Positions 35,182 to 40,553 of a stretch of DNA of 64,000 bases are shown here, piece by piece. Positions within the stretch are counted from its first letter, which is position 1. Every line of letters starts with the position of its first letter. This DNA is from Dactylosporangium sp. AC04546. Its GTDB lineage: Bacteria > Actinomycetota > Actinomycetes > Mycobacteriales > Micromonosporaceae. The translations under genes were made by a program, and so were the position numbers. The notes under the pieces were generated by a model that made no database searches, was not told the origin of the DNA, and was given only the letters and a program-made list of their open reading frames with translations. The stretch covers positions 1 to 64,000 of the forward strand of contig NZ_JAHYSG010000013.1 of assembly GCF_022095675.1 (NCBI RefSeq), in the 5' to 3' direction.

Positions 35182-35620
35182 GCATCATCACCAGTGCATC
35201 CGTGTTGCTGGGCTGGTAGTAGCCGCGGCGAATGCCGACGGCCTCGAAGCCGTACCCGGCGTAGAGCTTCTGGGCGGGCGCGTTGTCGACCGCCACCTCG
35301 AGCAGCACCTGCCGCGCGCCGCGGGCCCGGGCCTCGGCGAGCAGCGCCTGCAGCAGGCGCCGGCCGATGCCGCGGCGCTGCGCGTCCTTGCGCACGCCGA
35401 TGTTCTGCACCCACGCCTCGTCGGGCGGGCTGAGCGCGAGCCCGGCGTAGCCGACGATCCGGTCGCCGTCGAGCGCGACGAGGTAGTGGTGGCCGGCCGC
35501 CAGCTCGTTCCAGAACATGGCGGCGGACCAGCGCTCCTCGCCGAACAGCTCGTCCTCGATCGGCAGCAGCTGCTCGATGTGGAACCAGCGCAGCTCGCCG
35601 AGCTCGACCGGGGCCGTCAC
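35168..35620 (-). CDS. rimI: Ribosomal-protein-alanine N-acetyltransferase RimI
   Basis: A GNAT acetyltransferase of 150 residues. The acetyl-CoA loop reads [19 protein letters not shown] and the C-terminal block ENAPAQ-like segment is [25 protein letters not shown]. RimI acetylates the N-terminal alanine of S18 in enterics; here the context within the tsa genes is the standard actinobacterial and widespread one. The GTG overlaps the tsaB stop (GTGA). Confidence 0.92.
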
Positions 35621-36282
35621 CGCAGCGCCGGCTTCCGTTCGCCGGGTAGCACGGCGTCGGGGCGGCGCAGGTACAGCGGGATCAGCGGCTCGCCGGGCAC
35701 CTTGGCGCGGATCCGGTCGGCGGCCAGCTCGGCGAGGGCCGTCGCGACCGGGTAGCGCGGGCCATCGAGCAGGCGGGAGTGCGGGCGGGCCAGCACCGCG
35801 GCGTACTTCTCGGCGCCGTCGCCGGCGACGCCCTCGATCCCGTCGAGGGACACCGCGTCGGGCCGGGCCACCTCGGGCCCGTCGACCCGGACCCCGTCGG
35901 CGTAGACCGCCCAGTAGATCTCCTTGCGGCGGGCGTCGGTGGCGACCAGCACCCGGCCGGGCAGCCCGCGGCCGATGCCGTCGAGCGAGCACACGCCGTG
36001 GACGGGGACGCCGATCGCGTGCCCGAGCGCCGCGGCGGTGACCAGCCCGGCGCGCAGCCCGGTGAACGGCCCCGGCCCGGTCCCGGCGACGATCGCGGCC
36101 AGGTCGCCGGGCGCCACGCCGCCCTCGGCCAGCACGGCGGTGATCTGCGGCGCGAGCAGCTCGCCGGCGCCGCGGGCGTCGACGGTGACCCGCTCCGTGA
36201 GCAGGGTCACGTCGTCGTCGCCGACCCGCACGAGCGCCGCGGTCACCGCGGGCGTCGCCGTGTCCACCACCATCACCAGCAC
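35617..36282 (-). CDS. tsaB: t6A synthesis protein TsaB
   Basis: TsaB is an inactive TsaD paralogue that scaffolds the TsaB-TsaD-TsaE complex. It shows VMVVDTATPAVTAALV, GTGPGPFTGLRAGL and LVATDARRKEIYWAVY. The length is 221 residues from GTG. It is the first gene of the tsaB-rimI-tsaD run. tsaE, normally just upstream, is 3.8 kb away because of the inserted cassette at 36405-40035. Confidence 0.95.
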   Translation of the reverse strand: MLVMVVDTATPAVTAALVRVGDDDVTLLTERVTVDARGAGELLAPQITAVLAEGGVAPGDLAAIVAGTGPGPFTGLRAGLVTAAALGHAIGVPVHGVCSLDGIGRGLPGRVLVATDARRKEIYWAVYADGVRVDGPEVARPDAVSLDGIEGVAGDGAEKYAAVLARPHSRLLDGPRYPVATALAELAADRIRAKVPGEPLIPLYLRRPDAVLPGERKPALR

Positions 36283-36404
36283 GCGCCCAACTCTAGACGG
36301 CTTCGCAGATGGCGCGACGTCGCCACCACGATCAGTTAACGCCGTGGCAATGCGCGGGCCTTACCATCGGCCGACATCTCCGCGTGGGCGTCAGGAGGAT
36401 TCGG

Positions 36405-38468
36405 ATGACCGAGCCGATCCTGGTCGTGGACATGGGGTCCTGGGCCGTGTCCGCCGCTGTCCTCGCGCAGGACCAGCTGCACCCGGTGCGGGAGCCGGTC
36501 ACCGGCGCCGTCCGGTGGCCCGGCGGCGCCACCCTGCAGACCGGCGTGGGCCGGCCCCGGCTGCTCGTCGGCGGGGCCGCCGAGCACGCCCGCGACCAGC
36601 AGCCCCGCCAGTACGTCGACGGCGTGCGCCGCGCGGTCGACGCGAACGGGCCGGTCTGGCTCGGCGACCAGCTGCTCACCGGGGCCGAGCTGACGAGCGC
36701 CGCGCTCGACGCGGTGGTCGAGGAGGCCCGCCGCACCCACGGGCCGATCGGGCGGGTCGTCATGACGGTGCCCACGGGGTACCGCACCCACGACCCCCGC
36801 CGCGAGGTCCTCGTCACCGCCGCGTCCGTCTCCGGCCACCCCGACGTCGAGCTCGTCTGCGACGCCACCGCGGCGGTGCTCGACCCGATGACCATGCTGG
36901 AGGTCCCCGACGGCGGCTACGTCCTGGTCTGCGACCTGGGCGCGACCTGGTCGGCGACGCTCATCCAGATCCAGCGCGGCCAGCCGGTGCCGCTGAGCCA
37001 GGAAAGCTCCGGCAGCGGCCGCGACCTCGACGTGGTGCTCGCCGCCGACCTGCGGGCGACCCTCGCCGAGTGGGTGGAGCCGGCGTTCGCGGCCGGCGGC
37101 GACACCAGCATCCGGGCCGGCTTCCACGCGCTGGACATCGTGCGGCTGCTCAAACACCGCCTCAGCGAGCTGCCGGAGGCCGCCGAGGCGATCGAGCCGG
37201 GTGCCCCGCTGTACCGCATGGATCGCCGGCTCCTCGACCAGCACACCGAGCCGGCCATGCGCTGGCTCGTCGCCAGCTGCCGCGCGGTCATCGCCCGCGC
37301 GGGCATCGTCCCGGCGGACGTGACCACGGTGCTCCTCGTCGGCGGCCACGCCCACCTGCCGAACGTCGTCCCGGTCCTGCACAACAACCTCGGCCGCCCG
37401 GTCACCCGGCCCGCCGACCCGGAGCTGGCGGTCCTGCGCGGTACCGCGGCCTGGGCCCGCGCCCGACTCGACCGCGCCGTGCCCGCCGAGCCGCCCCAGT
37501 GGCGGGTCGAGCCGCTCGCCTGGACCGTCCCCGGCGGGCGGGGCCGGCTGGTCCGCTGGCTGGTCAAGGAGGGCGAGGGCTACGGATCGGGCACCCCCCT
37601 CGCCCAGGTCCGCACGGCCGACGACCGCGTGTTCGAGCTGACCGCGGGCCGCACCGACGGCGTCATGCTCGAACAGCGCATCCCCGTCGGCAACATGGTC
37701 GTCTCCGGCGCGGTCGCCGCGCACGTGCGGATCGAGCCGACGACCGAGCGGTACCAGCTGGCCAAGCGCCACCACCTGCGGGTCGCCGGCGACTGGCTGC
37801 TCCTCCCCGACCGCCGCATGATCGTCGAGTGCGCCCGCACGGCCGAGTACGTGAAGGTCCGCGCGATCGACACCGGCGCCCTGATCGCCGAGCTCCGCCC
37901 GGGCCGCGCCGCCGCCCGCGGCCAGCTGGCCCTCGGCCCCGGCCAGCAGCTGTCCCTGGTCACCTGGGACACCGCGGGCCACTTCGCCGTCTGGGACGTG
38001 CTGTCGGGCCGGATGATGAGCAGCTTCTCCGACGCCCACCGCACCGACGCGGTCATGGTCAACGAGGCCGAGTGGCGCCTGGTGGCCACCGGCGAGGGCG
38101 CGGCGACGGTGGGCCGCTACCGCCGCGACGTGGCGACCGTCTGGGACCTGGCGACGGGCGCCCGCCTGGACAAGGTCGTCGGCGAGGACCTGCCGCGCCG
38201 CTTCACGGGCTACTCGGGCTCGAGCCGCGCGGACGCGTTCGCCCCGGAGATGTCGAGCCCGGACGGCCGCCTGCTGGCCGCCGCCCACCCGGGCACCCTG
38301 TCGCTGCGCGACGTGGAGACGGAGACGGAGGTCTTCCGCGCCGACCTCCCCCCGGCAACGGCGGTGAGCACGGCGTTCTGCGCCGCGGGCCGCCACCTGC
38401 TGGCCCGCGGCACGGACGACGCCGGCGCCTGGCTGGACGTCTGGGAGATCCTCCAGCCCGCCGCCTAG
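36405..38468 (+). CDS. Hsp70-like ATPase fused to a lipoyl-like barrel and a beta-propeller
   Basis: Residues 1-350 form an Hsp70/actin-type ATPase: phosphate 1 LVVDMGSWAV, TVPTGY, phosphate 2 VLVCDLGATWSATL and the adenosine loop VLLVGGHAHLPNV. Residues of about 375-445 look like a lipoyl/biotinyl barrel (VKEGEGYGSGTPLAQV, IPVGNMVVSGAVAAHV) without the modified lysine. From about 455 to 687 WD40-type blades follow (FAVWDVLSGR, ATVWDLATGA, LSLRDVETETE). The Hsp70 substrate-binding domain is absent. No membrane segment is seen. The ATG at 36405 follows AGGAGG. It ends four bases inside the convergent propeller gene. Its role is unknown. Confidence 0.82.
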   Translation: MTEPILVVDMGSWAVSAAVLAQDQLHPVREPVTGAVRWPGGATLQTGVGRPRLLVGGAAEHARDQQPRQYVDGVRRAVDANGPVWLGDQLLTGAELTSAALDAVVEEARRTHGPIGRVVMTVPTGYRTHDPRREVLVTAASVSGHPDVELVCDATAAVLDPMTMLEVPDGGYVLVCDLGATWSATLIQIQRGQPVPLSQESSGSGRDLDVVLAADLRATLAEWVEPAFAAGGDTSIRAGFHALDIVRLLKHRLSELPEAAEAIEPGAPLYRMDRRLLDQHTEPAMRWLVASCRAVIARAGIVPADVTTVLLVGGHAHLPNVVPVLHNNLGRPVTRPADPELAVLRGTAAWARARLDRAVPAEPPQWRVEPLAWTVPGGRGRLVRWLVKEGEGYGSGTPLAQVRTADDRVFELTAGRTDGVMLEQRIPVGNMVVSGAVAAHVRIEPTTERYQLAKRHHLRVAGDWLLLPDRRMIVECARTAEYVKVRAIDTGALIAELRPGRAAARGQLALGPGQQLSLVTWDTAGHFAVWDVLSGRMMSSFSDAHRTDAVMVNEAEWRLVATGEGAATVGRYRRDVATVWDLATGARLDKVVGEDLPRRFTGYSGSSRADAFAPEMSSPDGRLLAAAHPGTLSLRDVETETEVFRADLPPATAVSTAFCAAGRHLLARGTDDAGAWLDVWEILQPAA

Positions 38469-39538
38469 CTGGGGCCGATTTCGACCCTGTGGTTACCGTC
38501 GGGGGCGCCTGTTGTCGTGGGGATGGTCTCGCGGAGGGTGCCCGTCGGGGAGTACACCTGGACCTCGCCCGGGACCGACAGGAGCAGGTCGGTCGGGGAC
38601 GACCAGCACAGCGAGTACGACGCCGGGCGGGAGCCCGGCAGCTCGGCCGTCGTGGCGCCCGTTGCCGTGTCGACGATGCGCCAGTCGGTCACCGCATGGC
38701 GGCCGTCCGTCGACCAGCCGCAGGCGTCCTCGACCGGGCCGCTCACCGGGACCGTGCGGACGAGGTGGCCGTCCTCGGCGGAGAGCAGGGACAGGCCCTT
38801 GCCGTCCGGGGACGTCACCGCCACCTCCTGGCCGGTCCGGGTCCAGGCCGCCGGGCAGTCGCCGTTCACGCAGTGGTGGGCGGCCGCGTCGAACGGGAGG
38901 GCCCGGGCCTTCACCTGGCCCGCGTTCACCTCGATGATCGTGAGGCGGCCGGCCGAGGGGTCCGAGTACAGCAGGCTGCGGCCGTCCGGGGACCAGCTCA
39001 GCTGCCTCGGGACCGTGGCGAGCGGCAGGTCGCGGACGGTGTGGGCGCCCAGGTCGAGCAGCACCGCGAAACCGGTCCGCGCGGACAGTGCCAGCGCCAG
39101 GTCGCCGGCCGGGGCCGGCCGGACGTCCGGGAAGGGCACGGTGACGTAGCCGCCGGCCGTGCGGTCGTACACCCACGTGCTGTCGCGCGGGCCCGGCACC
39201 GCGACCAGCGTGAAGCCGCCCGGCAGCTCGACCGGGCGCAGCGTCGGCGGGGCCTCGGACACCGCGAATGGCACCGCCGACGGGCTCGCTGACGGGCTTG
39301 CCGGCGGGGTCGGGCGCGGCGGGGCCGGCTGGTCGTCGCGGTCGCGGTCACGGTTCAGCGGGATCACCAGGGCCGCCAGCAGGATCGCGGTCGCCCCGGC
39401 CGCCGCCGCGAGCCGCCGGCGGCGGATGCGCTTTGCCCGCAGTACCGCCGCAGCCGCCAGGGGAACCGGACGAGCCTCCGCGGCGAGGCCGGCCAGCGTG
39501 TGGCGGACCAGGCGGTCCAGCTCTGCGTCGCGGTTCAC
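38465..39538 (-). CDS. Membrane-anchored beta-propeller protein coupled to a sigma factor
   Basis: The 357-residue protein begins with a cytoplasmic stretch (VNRDAELDRLVRHTLAGLAAEA), one membrane span near residue 50 (AAAAGATAILLAALVIPL), a Pro/Ser linker, then an extracellular TolB/WD-like propeller (RQLSWSPDGRSLLYSD, EVAVTSPDGKGLSLL, CGWSTDGRHAVTD). Two or three cysteines may form disulfides. Its GTG overlaps the stop of the sigma gene, which suggests it is the cognate membrane partner or anti-sigma factor. No zinc-binding anti-sigma motif is seen. Confidence 0.8.
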   Translation of the reverse strand: MNRDAELDRLVRHTLAGLAAEARPVPLAAAAVLRAKRIRRRRLAAAAGATAILLAALVIPLNRDRDRDDQPAPPRPTPPASPSASPSAVPFAVSEAPPTLRPVELPGGFTLVAVPGPRDSTWVYDRTAGGYVTVPFPDVRPAPAGDLALALSARTGFAVLLDLGAHTVRDLPLATVPRQLSWSPDGRSLLYSDPSAGRLTIIEVNAGQVKARALPFDAAAHHCVNGDCPAAWTRTGQEVAVTSPDGKGLSLLSAEDGHLVRTVPVSGPVEDACGWSTDGRHAVTDWRIVDTATGATTAELPGSRPASYSLCWSSPTDLLLSVPGEVQVYSPTGTLRETIPTTTGAPDGNHRVEIGPS

Positions 39539-40035
39539 CGGCGCACCCCCGTTCCGTCGAGGTCCGGCAGGCGGCGGCGCAGGGTGGCCAGGGCGCGCGA
39601 GGCCTGGCTGCCGACGGTGCCGGTGGACACGCCGAGGAGGTCGGCGACCTGCTGCTCGCTCAGGTCCTCGAGGTACCGCAGGACCAGCACCGCCCGCTGG
39701 CGGGCCGGGAGCGTGGCCAGCGCCGCACGCATCGTGAGCCGCAGGTGGGGATCGTCGTCGGCCCTGCCGCGCTCGGGCGGCTCGGCCGTCACCACCTCGC
39801 GGCGATGTCGCAGGCGGCGCCACCAGGAGACGTGCTCGTGGTACATGATCTTGCGCACGTACGGCTCGGCGTCGCCGCGGATGCGGGTCCAGCGCAGCAT
39901 CGCCTTGGCCAGGGCCGTCTGCACCAGGTCCTCGGCCGCGTGCTGCTCGCCGGTCAGCGCGTACGCCACCCGCAGCAGGGTCGTGCCGCGGGCCGCCACG
40001 AACTCGCTGAACTCGCGCTCGGCTGCCTTGTCCAT
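39535..40035 (-). CDS. SigE-family ECF RNA polymerase sigma factor
   Basis: The 166-residue chain shows region 2 (EFSEFVAARGTTLLRVAYALTGEQHAAEDLVQTALAKAMLRW) and region 4 (LPARQRAVLVLRYLEDLSEQQVADLLGVSTGTVGSQASRAL), described here by span: residues 8-55 and 110-155. It belongs to the actinobacterial SigE-type ECF group that is usually paired with a membrane protein encoded downstream, as here. The ATG at 40035 follows GGAGGCGAT. Its target promoters are unknown. Confidence 0.9.
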   Translation of the reverse strand: MDKAAEREFSEFVAARGTTLLRVAYALTGEQHAAEDLVQTALAKAMLRWTRIRGDAEPYVRKIMYHEHVSWWRRLRHRREVVTAEPPERGRADDDPHLRLTMRAALATLPARQRAVLVLRYLEDLSEQQVADLLGVSTGTVGSQASRALATLRRRLPDLDGTGVRR

Positions 40036-40094
40036 CGATCGCCTCCGCCATCTACGACGCGCGGAGGGGTGCACCGCCTTGCACGCTGCCTCGT

Positions 40095-40553
40095 TCAGAT
40101 TTTGGCGGTGCGTTGCTCCCAGTCGCCGCCGCGCGGGATCAGCGCGACCACCCGCGAGTCGTCCTCGCGGCGGTCGAGGCGGACCTCCAGGTGCTCGTCG
40201 CTGAGCTGCTCGACCAGGCCCTCGCCCCACTCGACGAGCGTGACCGAGTCCTCCAGCGTCGCGTCGAGGTCGAGCGCGTCGACCTCGCCCAGCGGGTCCT
40301 TGACGGCGCCGAGCCGGTACGCGTCGACGTGCACCATCGGGATCCGGCCGCCCCGGTGCACGCGGGCGATCACGAACGTCGGGGAGGTGACGTCGCCGCT
40401 GACCTTCAGGCCGGCGCCGACGCCCTGGGCGAGCGCCGTCTTGCCGGCGCCCAGCGGGCCGGTCAGCACGACGAGGTCGCCCGGGCGCAGTACCTCGGAA
40501 AGCGCCCGCCCGAAGGCGCGCGTGTCGTCCGCAGTCGACAGGATTCGGCTCAC
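40095..40553 (-). CDS. tsaE: t6A synthesis ATPase TsaE
   Basis: The 152-residue ATPase has Walker A GPLGAGKTALAQG, the switch SPTFVI and the family block MVHVDAYRLG, with EWGEGL near the end. It drives the TsaB-TsaD cycle. The GTG overlaps the stop of the upstream hydrolase (GTGA). The sigma-factor cassette lies just downstream, which splits tsaE from tsaB. Confidence 0.95.
   Translation of the reverse strand: MSRILSTADDTRAFGRALSEVLRPGDLVVLTGPLGAGKTALAQGVGAGLKVSGDVTSPTFVIARVHRGGRIPMVHVDAYRLGAVKDPLGEVDALDLDATLEDSVTLVEWGEGLVEQLSDEHLEVRLDRREDDSRVVALIPRGGDWEQRTAKI

Follow-up and report, generated by a model that had tools for sequence, protein, structure and literature searches.

The gene at positions 36405 to 38468 of the window, by which we mean the whole 64,000-nucleotide stretch of Dactylosporangium sp. 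AC04546 DNA analyzed here, encodes a protein of 687 residues on the + strand. Taking all evidence together, the best explanation is that this protein is an Hsp70-fold (ASKHA) pseudo-ATPase, descended from the dead member of a probably ancestral two-gene set, a combined reading to which we give about even confidence. The features of the gene and its two neighbors are as follows.

36390..36404, + strand: ribosome-binding site AGGAGG, in the sequence directly 5' of the ATG at 36405
36405..37460, + strand: Hsp70-type nucleotide-binding domain (NBD), residues 1 to 352, catalytically degenerate (residue tally)
37500..37740, + strand: biotin/lipoyl-type barrel, about residues 366 to 445 (hhalign, model strands, lysine tally)
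37755..38453, + strand: WD40-like beta-propeller, about residues 451 to 683 (models, Foldseek, VIA)
35617..36282, - strand: divergent neighbor that we take to be tsaB, followed by rimI and tsaD (gene comparison)
38465..39538, - strand: convergent neighbor with one hydrophobic segment and WD40/TolB-like repeats (translation)

A longer open reading frame (ORF) starting at 36309 appeared in the mechanical ORF list and was rejected as an over-extension; a good ribosome-binding site precedes the start at 36405. In comparisons with four Dactylosporangium species, point estimates of dN/dS were 0.25 to 0.31 overall and 0.14 to 0.32 for single domains, the C-terminal domains being under constraint equal to that on the NBD. 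Because relatives span the whole length and the overall dN/dS is this low, a chance ORF was ruled out, and the gene is a maintained one. In Pfam, HSP70 alone was above the cut-off (residues 88 to 350; E = 1.3e-11). Searches of NCBIfam and PDB sequences matched the first half to HscA/DnaK; for the second half, they yielded no more than faint suggestions of a lipoyl domain (E = 0.078 and 0.065) and, at E = 2.2, of a G-beta propeller.

The first half of the protein has the Hsp70 NBD fold, and the preliminary description had judged this ATPase intact by its nucleotide motifs. The residues contradict this. In the window protein, R75 replaces the catalytic lysine, whose position we take to be that of DnaK K70 (the numbering and the catalytic roles of the residues are likewise presumed), D153 replaces the catalytic glutamate, and DLGATWS, one residue shorter, replaces DLGGGTFD. 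We tallied these positions in the window protein and 75 of its 98 relatives (alignment A1, from which fragments and some near-duplicates had been removed by eye), aligned jointly with seven neighboring partner proteins and with 32 other Hsp70-like proteins of the same genome (36 ORFs minus four: the window gene itself, one duplicate, one partial and one truncated neighbor ORF). The lysine position was R in 70 of the 76 family members and empty in 6 (R in 70, a gap in 5 and E in 1 in the original family alignment; n = 76), compared to K in 31/32 of the genome's other Hsp70-like proteins, with one gap. Glutamate was kept in only 3/76, with D in 53 and S in 13, as against 31/32 in the other proteins. 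The phosphate-2 motif read mostly DLGATW[ST] in the family: W182 was found in 76/76, where the 32 other proteins mostly have F, and the loop aspartate was present in 0/76 versus 31/32. Loss of normal hydrolysis is, on this tally, probable. Many other positions were retained, namely, K250 (74/76), H251 (74/76), G313 (76/76), G314 (74/76) and D9, G11, G179 and G346 (74 to 76 of 76 each), together with D177 in 68/76 (changed in 8/76), and we infer that the protein binds nucleotide without hydrolyzing it.

Two other readings of these residues were weighed. According to the first, the protein is a nucleotide-gated scaffold that still hydrolyzes slowly, arginine standing in for the lysine and aspartate for the glutamate; both replacements are conservative and retained, as are the adenosine-side residues, and the loop threonine is kept in 60/76. 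The conservative replacements and the threonine also count against our preferred explanation. However, slow hydrolysis sits poorly with a phosphate-2 loop that is shortened round an invariant tryptophan and never keeps its aspartate, with S, A, N or G at the glutamate position in 20/76, and with the absence, through a gap, of the lysine segment in five members (P0028, P0029, P0046, P0086 and P0087), and we consider it distinctly unlikely. The second reading is a pure scaffold that neither binds nor hydrolyzes, the NBD being a relic or a dimerization fold and the barrel and propeller alone mattering. While the gaps of at least 12 residues in the NBD of 8/76 members and the equal constraint on the C-terminal domains are in its favor, the near-invariance of D9, G11, G179, K250, G313 and G346 would be needless in a relic fold, so that this reading, too, seems rather unlikely. 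As a separate observation, P0028 and P0029, both from Dactylosporangium, have lost NBD residues 44 to 94, the segment bearing the catalytic-lysine position.

The second half of the protein bears out the three-domain anatomy proposed earlier. Instead of an SBD-beta and lid after the NBD, models, Foldseek and hhalign showed a lipoyl-type barrel, at the site of the Hsp70 peptide-binding domain, and then a propeller, and the claim that the peptide-binding half of Hsp70 had been replaced was thus correct. By sequence profile, the barrel is of the biotin/lipoyl type: family residues 360 to 448 aligned to biotin/lipoyl pieces with an hhalign probability of 95.6 (pairwise E = 1.2e-8), and the barrel of the partner protein did so with a probability of 96.8 (E = 2.7e-10). 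As controls, 20/20 column-shuffled versions reached a probability of at most 0.75 and two propeller pieces at most 0.81. The biotin/lipoyl set consisted of 11 pieces from the same genome; two of these were cut short, and the two from L112 duplicate two of those from L104. In addition, positions 375 to 437 of the family profile matched one biotin/lipoyl protein of the own genome (E = 3.3e-4), where PF00364 also matches it, and the relative P0208 gave a sub-cut-off Pfam Biotin_lipoyl match at residues 391 to 453. The PDB re-ranking of the C-terminal model lists propellers and is therefore mute on the barrel, neither for nor against it. Support for the barrel thus comes from hhalign, the model strands, the family-profile match and the P0208 match; the hhalign result with its controls and the last two matches are the reasons for which we consider the earlier assignment right. 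The barrel was also correctly said to be without the modifiable lysine, since its hairpin, RTADDRV, contains none and a lysine occurs in the hairpin (residues 400 to 412) of 0/76 family members.

The propeller region was modeled with 20 strands, that is, five blades' worth, in four-stranded blades of the WD40 type, and structure prediction, one of the checks suggested at the outset, gave strands for both barrel and propeller. No Pfam WD40 model was above the cut-off in the window protein, and single specialized WD40 models, with E values up to 0.01, matched no more than 8 of the 38 proteins in alignment A2, which were drawn from the 76 family members of A1.

We then determined the distribution of the gene, as the preliminary description had proposed for the fusion. 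A close ortholog (E < 1e-100) was present in 22 of 101 genomes searched: all 22 came from the window's own family, represented by 61 genomes, and the 40 genomes from the rest of the order had none; in G004, of the same genus as the window, it was not found. At least 98 relatives passed E = 1e-3 in the protein collection, a lower bound because scoring was limited to the 7998 candidates with the most shared words, and 82 of these relatives cover at least 96% of the query. The relatives bearing organism names belong to genera that we take to be Micromonosporaceae.

Directly after the ortholog, 8 of the 22 genomes (G012, G014, G021, G034, G037, G040, G043 and G044) carry a second Hsp70-like gene. 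The two reading frames share 17 bases in five pairs (L039, L040, L041, L048 and L049) and 13 bases in G012 and G021 if the first start is used; in G044, the size of the overlap varies with the start chosen. The partner protein is mostly about 450 residues long and consists of the NBD and the barrel, with no further domain. Among the seven partners included in the tally, which left out that of G044, the lysine was kept in six, the glutamate in seven and the full GGGTFD in five; the partners of G021 and G034 have a degenerate phosphate-2 loop, and that of G021 also lacks the lysine. No adjoining partner was seen in the other 14 ortholog genomes, including that of the window (neighborhoods L089 to L091 were checked for the partner, and their remaining genes were left out of the comparison).

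Apart from the window gene, the same genome (G000) has an overlapping pair on its contig C12 (L057:6408-10546; overlap of 13 bases with the first start), both members of which are of the NBD-barrel type, the first catalytically degenerate and the second intact. Since Pfam finds no domain in the first protein, its gene was placed by the family profile alone. In a tree of 60 NBDs, the barrel clade had a support of 0.999, the dead clade, with the C12 first gene in it, 0.949, and the partner clade 0.958. In view of the C12 pair and the tree, the pairing of a dead with an active member seems to be ancestral, the window copy having apparently parted from its twin. We also searched 37 family genomes for a second NBD-barrel protein (E = 1e-80; 27 candidates scored per genome; G037, G040, G043, G044, G048, G056 and G060 omitted). 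One was found besides the ortholog in 6 of the 37, all 6 within the 15 ortholog holders, a co-occurrence that favors a link, with the caveat that these genomes are not independent of one another. Among the 11 searched ortholog genomes without an adjoining twin, 9 showed no active NBD-barrel protein anywhere at E = 1e-80, only G000 and G002 having one elsewhere. Because of these nine genomes, a barrel-type partner does not appear to be obligatory.

Beyond the close relatives, an active NBD-barrel profile matched 272 proteins at E = 1e-70. Among the best 120 of these 272, the hosts were Micromonosporaceae, Kitasatospora, Streptomyces, Nocardioides and Streptosporangiaceae, the records were named "Hsp70 family protein," "molecular chaperone DnaK" or "WD40 repeat protein/actin-like ATPase," and six Kitasatospora entries had two NBD-barrel proteins each, probably on one contig. 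The additions vary in this wider family and are missing from some members; a Pfam-clear WD40 domain is found in P0212, P0182 and P0151, and hydrophobic tails were seen by eye in Kitasatospora and Nocardioides members. In P0145 (L061, G000:C88), a Clp_N domain lies N-terminal to the Hsp70 NBD and lipoyl-like barrel. In 394 genomes of the class, at least 28 matched at E = 1e-80, namely, the window's and 27 of family f32, and among 198 genomes drawn from the phylum, the window's alone matched; both counts are lower bounds because few candidates were scored per genome. The 27 f32 genomes belong to three genera and yielded a single NBD-barrel-WD40 match apiece (L195 to L221). These f32 proteins terminate in WD40-like repeats in all 27 open frames and have the lysine pattern in 27/27, the glutamate pattern in 24/27 and GGGTF in 25/27, followed by E rather than D in 17/27. 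Judged by sequence, the window protein is a dead-ATPase branch of a widespread actinobacterial NBD-barrel family. The order of domains had earlier been held to be without a described example; our literature searches indeed found no paper on the NBD-barrel family, which is undescribed as far as these searches reach, but the order itself is not rare, given the relatives and the wider family in Micromonosporaceae, Kitasatospora, Streptomyces, Nocardioides and others.

The own genome is also unusual in its number of Hsp70-like proteins. It contains 50 PF00012 HSP70 matches, some sharing an open frame, an unusually large expansion in which most matches combine an Hsp70-type NBD with differing C-terminal halves. 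Two such matches fall in the same 997-residue open frame (G000:C135:4533-7313), perhaps as tandem NBDs. The family profile gave 54 matches in this genome, and loci were taken for 30 of these. One of them, L097:6534-7958 (G000:C15), is a miniature relative in which profile pieces 2 to 98, 213 to 266 and 367 to 432 are closely consecutive, its NBD seeming stripped of large parts and its barrel retained. A contig scan with the diverse alignment A5, which gave 80 loci matching the query over the NBD only at 27 to 34% identity, was set aside, general Hsp70 motifs having been picked as patterns.

The genomic position of the gene bears on two further explanations. In all six Dactylosporangium genomes that have the ortholog, it stands between tsaE on one side and tsaB-rimI-tsaD on the other; it is divergent from tsaB, and in three of the six, further genes separate it from tsaE; tsaB, rimI and tsaD are named here from what we take to be their families. 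TsaB and TsaD are themselves an ASKHA pair with one inactive member, and the protein could be a helper of this adjoining tRNA-modification machinery, as its place beside tsaB in all six genomes would suggest. However, no tsaB was seen in 12 neighborhoods of other genera, and the gene, being divergent from tsaB, is not cotranscribed with it. Since the adjacency to tsaB is seen in Dactylosporangium only, we rank a role in t6A modification low and regard it as highly improbable.

On the other side, the convergent neighbor at 38465 overlaps the stop of the window gene by 4 bases and is not conserved as a neighbor; by eye, its product is probably an anti-sigma factor. With an ECF-type sigma factor gene, this hydrophobic-segment/WD40-TolB-like protein makes up a set at 38465-40173 on the - strand, convergent with the window gene; a related gene sits close by in G002, and the remaining four species in the comparison showed none. 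Clustering of the neighbors at 20 loci, including the 12 neighborhoods of other genera, showed that, besides the partner, no neighbor recurs in more than 4 of the 12: a sigma-like gene was found in 4/12 and several further genes in at most 3/12. Part of these recurring neighbors is plain shared synteny of related genera. In L039, L040 and L041, from three genera, a gene resembling an rRNA methyltransferase (by eye) adjoins the partner.

These neighborhoods also bear on whether the protein could belong to a conflict system, serving defense or programmed death in the manner of the GTPase-HSP70 and beta-propeller systems known from multicellular bacteria. The host is one of the multicellular actinomycetes, and Clp_N and WD40 additions do occur among the relatives. 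HSP70 genes in actinobacteria and firmicutes, in some cases paired with a second, are described by Kaur et al. 2020 (PMC7159879). Yet the lack of any neighbor, the partner aside, in more than 4 of the 12 neighborhoods of other genera argues against such a system, and both the fixed site beside tsaB in six species and the single NBD-barrel-WD40 match in each of the 27 f32 genomes fit a housekeeping role better. We consider a conflict system improbable.

Returning to the pseudo-ATPase reading, the NBD is predicted to bind nucleotide, probably ATP. Because this binding is predicted to occur without hydrolysis, the protein would be a scaffold that is fixed or switches slowly, not a cycling chaperone. 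It may yet be the nucleotide-gated scaffold or sensor of the preliminary description, with a propeller that selects the client, but the gating would then stem from binding alone or from a partner rather than from its own hydrolysis. In place of SBD-beta, the lipoyl-like barrel would be what couples to the NBD, and a client or a docking partner may bind on the face of the propeller. The window protein would derive from the dead half of a two-gene set that looks ancestral. Where the two are paired, the likely arrangement is a heterodimer: ATP cycling would fall to the active twin, and the dead twin, which bears the propeller, would regulate or position it, a role that could be likened to that of Ssz1 in serving Ssb. 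In Dactylosporangium, the dead member, twinless beside tsaB, would act alone or with another Hsp70-like protein of the cell.

In some sister genera, the overlap with a mostly intact twin gene hints at an undescribed two-part chaperone-like machine. More specifically, we tentatively propose, at well below even confidence, an actinomycete machine of two components, an ATP-cycling NBD-barrel protein and its translationally coupled, dead NBD-barrel-propeller twin, in whose heterodimer the barrel would stand in for the peptide-binding domain as what the ATPase drives, the propeller choosing the client. Hsp70 is usually seen as one engine with a single output, the peptide-binding domain. The NBD-barrel family keeps the engine and has a lipoyl-type barrel at the output site, followed by WD40 repeats, with Clp_N as another addition, or by nothing; one conserved branch is without the engine's chemistry and still under selection, and several genera encode an active twin alongside. 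The family thus offers a clean system for asking what the Hsp70 NBD drives beyond peptide binding and of what use a dead NBD is in bacteria. If true, the two-component machine would be a third use of the Hsp70 engine, beside SBD chaperones and Hsp110-type exchange factors.

Compared to canonical Hsp70/DnaK (PF00012), the window protein has its catalytic lysine and glutamate replaced and its GGGTFD loop rewritten, and no peptide-binding domain of the canonical kind was seen in it. Its barrel shares a profile likeness (95.6) with the biotin/lipoyl attachment domains (PF00364) and differs from them in having no modifiable lysine. P0212 (Streptomyces), P0182 (Actinoplanes) and the f32 proteins have the same order of NBD, barrel and WD40; P0212 and P0182 keep the lysine, the glutamate and GGGTFD, whereas the window protein lies in the dead branch of a tree built from 60 NBDs other than those of f32, P0212 and P0182. 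The nearest paper to the family that our searches found is that of Kaur et al. 2020 (PMC7159879), which places HSP70 genes in GTPase-centered systems of actinobacteria and firmicutes, the second gene sometimes being an HSP70 domain without a peptide-binding domain. An SBD-less HSP70 domain beside another HSP70 is common to those conflict systems and to the pairs described here; unlike in those systems, no recurring GTPase or GrpE neighbor was recognized among our neighbors, which were clustered and in part annotated. Ssz1, a fungal ribosome-associated protein of the Hsp70 fold, has an SBD-beta and is bound to the J-protein Zuo1, in contrast to the lipoyl-like barrel and propeller that follow the NBD here, where nonhydrolysis and pairing are read from residues and genes. 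Ssz1 binds ATP without hydrolyzing it and serves a second, active Hsp70 (PMC7083937), and it is the best functional precedent for the window protein.
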